This document shows, piece after piece, positions 22,472 to 50,121 of a DNA stretch of 64,000 nucleotides (its first letter is position 1; each line of letters begins with the position of its first letter). The notes beneath the pieces are model-generated. The model had not been told where the DNA came from. It made no database searches and was given only the letters and a program-made list of their open reading frames with translations. The translations under genes were made by a program, and so were the position numbers. The DNA comes from Flavobacteriales bacterium (GTDB lineage: Bacteria > Bacteroidota > Bacteroidia > Flavobacteriales_C > GCA-002722245): positions 62,001 to 126,000 of the forward strand of contig JAHEZM010000006.1 in the NCBI GenBank assembly GCA_023251075.1. The letters run 5' to 3'.

Positions 22472-23587
22472 TTATGGGATTAAAGATTCTACTATTTTTT
22501 TATGCTGATCTGTATATTTTTCTTCTTTCAACCCAAACATTCTTTCATTCATTCTATGCACAGTTTCAATTTCAAACTTTTCATTTTCCCAACTAAAATT
22601 GGGAATATATTTATTCGGAAATCTCTCTTGAAAAATATTGGAAGCAATACCTACTGAAGTTCCTGAATTCAATCGCGTAGAAATAGCCGTTTTACAATAA
22701 TCGGCCACGAATACACCGCAAAAACGTTGACCACTATCAATAAAATCATTGTGAGAATACGACCACACTTTAATATTTCCTAAAGTATTTTTCATATTCG
22801 AACAGTTCGTATCGGCACCTAAATTACACCACTCTCCTATCACTGAATTACCTAAGTATCCATCATGCGATTTATTGGAATACCCCTGGAAAATTGAATT
22901 CTTGATTTCTCCGCCCACCGTACATTTCGGACCAATAGTAGTTCCTCCATAAATTTTAGCACCCATCTTCACCACTACACCATCGCAAAAAGCAATTGGT
23001 CCGCGAAGCATAGCTCCATCCATTATAGTAACATTATTGCCTATATAAATGGGACCGTCCTCTTCATTTAAAATTGCTGATGGGGCAATTTTAACATTAA
23101 TCGATTTTTCTTTAATTAACGAAAGATCTTTGATTATTTCAGATGGATTCAGAAGGGATAAATCCCAGAGGTTTGAAATCGAAACTGCCTTACAATTTAT
23201 AGTTTTAAATGAGGCTTTTGAAGCAAGGACATCGTTGATAGCATGAGATGATTTGAACGCGATTATTTTATTGTTATCTATCAAAATCTCCTCGTCGCTA
23301 AGTGCGAAAATCTGTTGAATTAAATCAGTATTGGGAAGTACAGAAGAATTAATACATATATGAGTTTGCTTCGGAGTACCTCGCAATGACGTACTAAGTG
23401 AAAAAGATGAATTAGAAAACTTCTCTTTCAGATAATCCCTACACTCTACTTCACATTCTTCGCCTAAATACTTTTCCCATTTTTCTTTAATGGTGAAAAT
23501 ACCCACACGCAAAGCAGAAACCGGTTTAGTGAAAGTTAAAGGAAGAAGATGATCCCAAGTTTGATCGTCGAAGAGGATAATTTTCAT
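22472..23587 (-). CDS. GlmU-like sugar nucleotidyltransferase (NTP_transf_4) with left-handed beta helix
   Basis: The 371-residue protein opens MKIILFDDQTWDHLLPLTFTKP and LRVGIFTIKEKWE, the N-terminus of the Bacteroidota-type NTP_transf_4 family (PF13562), in which this region replaces the GXGTRM loop of standard nucleotidyltransferases. Residues about 165-300 are hexapeptide-repeat-like (IYIGNNVTIMDGAMLRGPI, VVKMGAKIYGGTTIG), as in GlmU acyltransferase domains. It is likely a sugar-1-phosphate nucleotidyltransferase; the substrate is unknown. Residues about 62-76 (including STSLRGTPKQT) are encoded by a palindromic repeat inserted in frame at 23366-23391. It lies downstream of rpsA across a terminator. 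Confidence 0.88.
   Translation of the reverse strand: MKIILFDDQTWDHLLPLTFTKPVSALRVGIFTIKEKWEKYLGEECEVECRDYLKEKFSNSSFSLSTSLRGTPKQTHICINSSVLPNTDLIQQIFALSDEEILIDNNKIIAFKSSHAINDVLASKASFKTINCKAVSISNLWDLSLLNPSEIIKDLSLIKEKSINVKIAPSAILNEEDGPIYIGNNVTIMDGAMLRGPIAFCDGVVVKMGAKIYGGTTIGPKCTVGGEIKNSIFQGYSNKSHDGYLGNSVIGEWCNLGADTNCSNMKNTLGNIKVWSYSHNDFIDSGQRFCGVFVADYCKTAISTRLNSGTSVGIASNIFQERFPNKYIPNFSWENEKFEIETVHRMNERMFGLKEEKYTDQHKKIVESLIP
23366..23391. repeat. In-frame copy of the TTGCTTC...CGCAATGACG repeat
   Basis: TTGCTTC, GGAGTACC, TCGCAATGACG: the outer parts match the 37-bp arm at 31491-31527, with the middle shortened to an imperfect palindrome around GTAC. It lies inside the GlmU-like gene and translates on the minus strand as part of STSLRGTPKQT. 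The reading frame stays open across it. Confidence 0.82.
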
Positions 23588-31359: not shown

Positions 31360-31393
31360 CCTCTGTTTTAAAGAACACATACCACACCCAATC

Positions 31394-31527
31394 CGTCATT
31401 GCGAGATTTTTGTACTCAAAAATGAAGCAACCTTATCATAGATTACAAATTAAAACACTTAGATAAATAATTAGCATTTGCGTCATAAGATTGCTTCATT
31501 TTTGAGTACAAAAATCTCGCAATGACG
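31394..31527. repeat. Perfect 37-bp inverted repeat pair
   Basis: Left arm 31394-31430 and right arm 31491-31527 are perfectly complementary over 37 bp, with a 60-nt AT-rich spacer (31431-31490). Arm ends are CGTCATTGCGAG and GAAGCAA. Related sequences are at 23366-23391, 43968-44003 and 50077-50113. It lacks a T-run after the right arm, so it is not a standard terminator. Confidence 0.93.
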
Positions 31528-31577
31528 AATTGTGTATAATTGATTATAAGATGATAAAACAAGAAATAGTAAAAACC

Positions 31578-43821: not shown

Positions 43822-44003
43822 GTAAATTACCGTCGGTTTTAACCGACGGAAAAAAGAATATGTGCAGGGGGCTTTAGCCAAAATATTATTTCGGCTAAAG
43901 CCAGTTATGAATACAATCAAATCCGTCGGTTAAAACCGACGGCAATTGAAAACAAAACACTACAAGATTGTTTCATTTTTGGGTACAAAATCTTGCAATG
44001 ACG
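43822..44003. repeat. Composite palindromic repeat, unit 1
   Basis: In order: palindrome CCGTCGGTTTTAACCGACGG (43830-43849), central hairpin GGCTTTAGCC/GGCTAAAGCC (43870-43879 / 43893-43902), second palindrome (43923-43942) with the flanks AATTaCCGTCGG and CCGACGGCAATT mirrored, then at 43968-44003 a degenerate TTGTTTCAT...TTGCAATGACG arm of the family at 31394. Unit 2 (49930-50113) has the same order. There is no ORF in it. Confidence 0.9.
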
Positions 44004-44015
44004 CTTTGAAAAAAC

Positions 44016-49872: not shown

Positions 49873-49929
49873 TAATACAAAAATTTCTTTCCCTCCTTTT
49901 AAGATACTTATTTATCCAATAAACTTCCT

Positions 49930-50113
49930 GTAAATTGCCGACGGTTTTAACCGACGGGAAAAAGAACACATACAGGGCTTTAGCCAAAAAATATAATTTC
50001 GGCTAAAGCCACTATGAAAATAATTAAATCCGTCGGTTGAAACCGACGGCAATTTGAAACTAAAAAGATTATATGATTGCTTCATCCGTCGGTTAACGGA
50101 TATCGCAACGACG
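49930..50113. repeat. Composite palindromic repeat, unit 2
   Basis: Same order as unit 1: GCCGACGGTTTTAACCGACGG, central hairpin GGCTTTAGCC/GGCTAAAGCC (49977-49986 / 50001-50010), CCGTCGGTTGAAACCGACGG (50030-50049), then at 50077-50113 a TTGCTTCAT...CGCAACGACG arm pair whose centre is replaced by CCGTCGGTTAACGG (50086-50099). It lies between dnaA and a small membrane protein gene. Confidence 0.9.
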
Positions 50114-50121
50114 AACGGACC

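Follow-up and report, generated by a model that had tools for sequence, protein, structure and literature searches.

CGTC-tagged REPs were described by Di Nocera et al. in 2013 as the families CGTC-1 to CGTC-4 (PMC3733652); units of this class occur in Bacteroidetes, some of them are intragenic, and a dedicated transposase was reported to be absent (PMC3733652). By the published definition, such a unit has an unpaired CGTC, TGTC or CCTC at one end, a stem that starts with the pairs A-T and T-A, and a loop of 4-5 nt. The same paper equates the palindromes RPE-4 and RPE-6 of Rickettsia conorii with CGTC-tagged REPs (PMC3733652). Nearly half of the R. conorii RPEs are located in genes, as the work of Ogata et al. 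(2000, 2002) is relayed in two later papers (PMC10969869, PMC3733652).

The locus considered here is found in the window, i.e., the whole 64-kb stretch of Flavobacteriales DNA that was analyzed, where a palindrome-derived segment interrupts an alt-GlmU gene in frame. The feature is a single arm of a GTCAT/CGTC REP inserted in a variable loop of the enzyme, and REPs of this class are probably mobilized in trans by stand-alone GIY-YIG nucleases.

The repeat family and its doublets

The pattern TTGCTTC-N0..30-TCGCAATGA has 35 exact matches in the 3.28-Mb genome and none for the reversed control, and the 11-mer core TCGCAATGACG occurs 41 times in the whole genome against three times in the control. 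With a covariance model based on 45 arms (threshold E<=5e-6), 72 arms are detected in the window genome; 136 arms were examined in the related genome G002. The arm is laid out as CGTC-ATTGC-3x3 loop-inner stem-4-nt loop-inner stem-GCAAT-CTYAT, giving a stem of 5 bp, a 3x3 internal loop and an inner stem of at most 7 bp; the 4-nt loops of the main types are TACT, TACC or AGCC, and the tail reads CTTAT or CTCAT in most arms. Within the 45-arm alignment the tag positions C7 and G8 are conserved in at least 90% of rows while T9 and C10 are invariant; the second stem pair obeys the A-T/T-A rule in 44 of the 45 arms and the first in 26. Differences in the inner stem are compensatory (TTTTT/AAAAA versus CCGT/ACGG), with 49 cells changed on both sides compared to 17.9 in shuffles, none of the 500 shuffles being as high.

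Members of the family multiply in inverted pairs, or doublets, whose CGTC tags face outward; this orientation is seen in all 46 pairs of G002 and all 29 pairs of the window genome, as read from the model matches. The window itself contains one intergenic doublet of the long-loop subtype with CGTC outward (31388-31533), consisting of a left arm at 31388..31436 on the plus strand (model E=2e-15) and a right arm at 31485..31533 on the minus strand (model E=2.6e-16). Two degenerate arms on the minus strand were also recovered by the model and by repeat search, at 43962..44009 (E=1.3e-7) and 50071..50119 (E=4.9e-10). Each belongs to a composite repeat in which CCGTCGGTTAAAACCGACGG hairpins lie beside the degenerate CGTC arm (43825-44009 and 49917-50119); composites of this kind are also present at other places in the genome, and two repeat families are therefore nested. 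Rfam returned no gathering-level match in the window, and for three loci that were tested all matches were below threshold.

Exact arms are not restricted to these two genomes; G018 carries 54, and the complete genome G048, the most repeat-rich relative, carries 456. Separately, two apparent orthologues sharing SYSQAYNFRNYSVKDGVAQSQVY, L018 in the window genome (C27:910-999) and L298 in G002 (C28:109170-109247), each have a REP doublet just upstream; the ATG within the CAATGAC of the arm shares the reading frame of the ORF and possibly represents a start codon donated by the repeat. A few other ORFs are alike.

The arm within the alt-GlmU gene

The host gene (22472..23587, minus strand) encodes a 371 aa protein of the family TIGR03991, 'alt_bact_glmU', which it matches at full length (residues 1-369) with 335.6 bits against a cut-off of 225.3. 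It is a single-copy gene, being the one TIGR03991 match in a search of the whole window genome; no canonical GlmU (TIGR01173) exceeds the cut-off in that genome, and the idea of a backup GlmU is rejected. The family name suggests that the enzyme functions in UDP-GlcNAc synthesis. The AlphaFold fold of the protein resembles nucleotidyltransferases of the Sulfolobus ST0452 type.

The REP arm AGTACGTCATTGCGAGGTACTCCGAAGCAAACTCAT occupies 23360-23395 on the minus strand (~36 nt), with an extent also given as 23360-23397, and corresponds to the covariance-model match C10:85360-85397 (E=1.9e-10). A sequence-only reading of this DNA had placed a 26-nt piece, TTGCTTCGGAGTACCTCGCAATGACG, at 23366..23391, where it is indeed present, and had matched its ends to the 37-nt arm at 31491-31527; that match holds, and the middle differs because the glmU arm is of a short-loop subtype. 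The same reading called the unit a palindromic repeat adding about 13 residues in frame. The membership in a palindrome family and the preserved frame stand, but the unit is one arm rather than a complete palindrome, and the net insert comprises 33 nt (23363..23395, minus strand; codons S65-T75), as delimited by homologue alignments and by identity to another copy, so that the protein gains 11 residues, or 12 at most.

That copy lies at contig C34:129168 and is identical to the glmU arm over 34 nt (AGTACGTCATTGCGAGGTACTCCGAAGCAAACTC); a further arm at C11:82791 is identical over 26 nt, and nine copies of the short-loop subtype are found at no more than 3 mismatches. Genome searches recovered the exact glmU-arm subtype seven times in the window genome, 39 times in the sister genome G001 and twice in G002, and in none of the other 97 genomes searched; in this search the exact subtype was limited to the genus. 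In alignments with family members the insertion is clean: the residues are unique to the window protein in one set of 38 aligned sequences and another of 30, and are present in none of the 65 homologues examined. Between the helix ending in EKF and the strand beginning with INSS there are about eight residues in nearly all other homologues and about 19 in the window protein. Because the loop length at this site varies among homologues, it could be argued that this stretch is an inherited ancestral loop, or one that arose by convergence, and that the match to the repeat is coincidental; this is scarcely credible, as the residues occur in no homologue and the exact 34-nt identity to another copy, for which the chance of a random match is on the order of 1e-13, refutes it.

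The insertion of a REP arm is also compatible with the protein structure. A loop had been anticipated at this site, and in the AlphaFold model residues 60-72 have pLDDT<50 and form a coil between the helix 51-57 and the strand 76-80, which suggests that the segment is surface-exposed. The alt-GlmU of the sister genome G001 (L087, contig C79; 66% identity) is missing ~22 residues in frame in the same loop, and the loop is therefore dispensable; the element landed in a loop that is also altered in the sister species. The ~22-residue gap could itself be an independent deletion, or an older insertion that was imprecisely lost.

The 33 nt were inserted into the N-terminal nucleotidyltransferase domain of the sole alt-GlmU gene, probably after the split from the sequenced relatives, and the insert probably persists through keeping the frame and through its position in a variable loop. 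No function is assigned to the added peptide. The segment matches the repeat consensus perfectly, which could reflect either constraint or a recent origin, and the host gene is the only TIGR03991 copy, hence an insert co-opted for a use to the enzyme or its mRNA may be considered; this is very improbable given that the segment is a low-confidence coil which no relative possesses, that the region has been lost in the sister species, and that a single arm is a weak hairpin. The lone glmU arm folds weakly (z about -1), compared to a z of -16.6 for a complete doublet; the arm may have inserted alone or may be what is left of a doublet.

Other ORFs containing the repeat were sought genome-wide. Among the 72 arms of the window genome and the 136 arms of G002 (208 in total, judged by open-frame context), the glmU arm alone lies clearly inside an ORF, and intragenic insertion is rare in this family, unlike in Rickettsia. 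Other candidates for intragenic copies, namely arms of the window genome near the 5' ends of ORFs and one G002 doublet, were rejected because they appear to lie upstream of the ORF or at its start and not in conserved protein.

GIY-YIG genes between repeat arms

One doublet of G002, with a spacing of 0.39 kb, encloses a 97-aa ORF and nothing else. The product (P0002) is a GIY-YIG nuclease (PF01541, 56.5 bits against a cut-off of 22.6); the catalytic Tyr, Arg, Glu and Asn residues (Y8, Y19, R29, E67 and N86) do not vary among 65 nucleases. Other long-spaced doublets of G002 differ in content; one of 1 kb spans an ordinary 305-aa gene, and one of 0.7 kb (L286, C20:212119-212901) holds between its two arms a 223-aa ORF which has no Pfam or NCBIfam match and is possibly a passenger gene.

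A search of 100 relatives with the P0002 protein, followed by examination of the flanks, showed that 13 of 30 retrieved nuclease loci have arms of the present family on one or both sides, mostly among the best matches; many of the remaining loci have different GTCAT-tagged palindromes. The association was evaluated by requiring that both flanks, taken as 300 bp each, contain an identical GTCAT+4 tag. The GTCAT tag was chosen from the 2013 paper (PMC3733652) and from the first loci read, and a plasmid collection serves as replication. The same tag is found in both flanks at 32 of 66 loci in relatives, against 0 of 67 glmU and 0 of 20 Y1_Tnp control loci (Fisher 1.2e-12 for relatives versus glmU); anagram tags score a mean of ~3 in 66. 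Seven of 14 plasmid loci also share the tag on both sides, including records from Azospirillum lipoferum and Neisseria gonorrhoeae, which themselves or by their groups are listed hosts of CGTC-REPs (PMC3733652). Tagged hairpins are present in both flanks of 27 of the 66 relative loci and eight of the 14 plasmid loci, versus none of 67. Roughly half of the nuclease loci, mostly from distant subfamilies, do not pass this two-flank test. On the A. lipoferum plasmid the nuclease gene (L403) lies between sufB and sufC; on a Shinella plasmid, flanks homologous to those of L403 enclose a nuclease gene (L414), and the tags differ (CCCC, CCTC).

GTAG-REPs have RAYTs as their accepted partner (PMC2817692, PMC3733652), and the window genome contains both a RAYT (C36, NF047646) and an IS200-like TnpA (C38); the glmU arm could thus be an ordinary REP mobilized by a RAYT or IS200-type Y1 transposase, with the link to GIY-YIG being incidental. 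This is improbable, however, as the tag of glmU-type arms is CGTC and not GTAG, the C36 RAYT (L071) is bracketed by its own long inverted repeat, which is unrelated to the CGTC family, and the C38 TnpA gene is near CCGTTGG repeats. Moreover, none of 32 Y1 loci in the window genome and other REP-rich genomes is bracketed by CGTC arms, and no PF01797 gene is found in G018 or in G048, despite their 54 and 456 arms.

The repeat type also agrees with the nuclease clade. When the ATTGCGA repeat type is mapped on a tree of 79 nucleases, four changes suffice, compared to 14.9 in shuffles, with none of 500 as low; the tree is built on few columns and has many open forks, and an 11-row group across its midpoint root has a shared tag in one case only. 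Where copies of the nuclease occupy different sites, DNA homology extends over 330-450 nt, approximately the arms plus the gene, and then ends (L331/L361, L333/L362, L332/L363, L345/L366, L411/L413). Some gene-less doublets of G002 start with CCTCATCATCATTTTT, as does the interior of the nuclease element, which is as expected of deletion derivatives. All 13 genomes in which this nuclease type was found carry at least seven REP arms, an association that is partly circular since the element's own arms are counted among them.

GIY-YIG nucleases are classical homing enzymes, and the gene may instead be of the homing type or a passenger, inserting time and again into REP doublets that already existed, without moving them; the unrelated 223-aa ORF between two G002 arms, and the many arms in G048 and the window genome that lack a matching nuclease, would fit such a role. 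This explanation is considered unlikely, although it carries more weight than the other alternatives: the repeat type follows the nuclease clade across families, blocks of homology between copies at non-homologous sites stop near the arms, as a single mobile unit would predict, and the interiors of short G002 doublets are similar to the first part of the nuclease element's interior.

Under the preferred mechanism of mobilization in trans, doublets and arms would be the non-autonomous units moved by the stand-alone nuclease whose gene, in relatives, is enclosed by a pair of arms of matching repeat type, and this enzyme would cut DNA at the tagged hairpin. A protein search of the window genome, with its 72 arms, found no nuclease of the matching type; such a nuclease may once have been present in the window lineage. 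G048, with 456 exact arms, likewise has no match to this GIY-YIG type and no Y1 transposase. The nearest nuclease in the window genome, L354 (C14:78978-79250), carries GTCATCCTGAGG repeats and is bracketed by a tagged palindrome other than that of the present family, GTCATCCTGAGGAACGAAGGA, which was not found in the 64-kb window.

A broader hypothesis, for and against which the balance is about even, is that a clade of stand-alone GIY-YIG nucleases has GTCAT/CGTC REPs as its non-autonomous partners throughout bacteria, the repeats of Neisseria among them and perhaps also the Rickettsia RPEs. Nucleases and repeats would form a REP-nuclease-REP class without a DDE or HUH transposase, in which nuclease and hairpin co-diversify and of which the glmU insert is one product. 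The bracketed GIY-YIG gene provides a named candidate enzyme, with matched repeat types in several phyla; in the open-access literature, no paper joining GIY-YIG proteins with REPs was found.

Comparison with described systems

Similar to members of the GIY-YIG superfamily, the nucleases are single-domain bacterial proteins with an invariant Tyr/Arg/Glu/Asn set (PMC1564403); a term search of that survey found no mention of palindromes. GTAG-REPs and REPINs with their RAYTs (PMC2817692, PMC3116915) are likewise short dispersed hairpins in inverted doublets, and in both systems the hairpins are candidates for non-autonomous mobile DNA, the bracketed enzyme gene being located elsewhere; however, a Y1 (HUH) transposase and a GTAG tag are found there, and a GIY-YIG nuclease and a CGTC tag here.

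The parallel with Rickettsia RPEs proposed by the sequence-only reading is valid at the level of the class through RPE-4 and RPE-6 (PMC3733652); in both cases tagged palindromes lie in frame in protein-coding genes, at positions compatible with the fold, judged here from the AlphaFold coil. The parallel does not extend to frequency: intragenic insertion is rare here, with one clear gene insertion per 208 arms in a different phylum, against the nearly half relayed for R. conorii. The Bacteroidota host, which that reading had stressed, is less surprising, as Bacteroidetes are already among the hosts of CGTC-REPs (PMC3733652). With this insert, protein-coding palindromes are nevertheless known from a Bacteroidota enzyme as well as from Rickettsia-like cases.

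The closest likeness is to CGTC-1 to CGTC-4, with which the family shares the CGTC tag followed by AT, a hairpin whose main types have a 4-nt loop, inverted dimers with one predominating orientation, a mostly intergenic distribution with rare intragenic units, and a Bacteroidetes host. It differs in having a 5 bp stem, a 3x3 internal loop and a variable inner stem where theirs is a stem of 8-9 bp, in its CTYAT rather than CCA tail, and in the GIY-YIG gene between its arms, no dedicated enzyme having been reported for theirs (PMC3733652). The family behaves like a CGTC-REP but is not filed under CGTC-1 to CGTC-4 because it lacks the 8-9 bp stem and the CCA tail; in-frame CGTC palindromes being already known, the glmU case is a new example of them in a structurally distinct REP variant.
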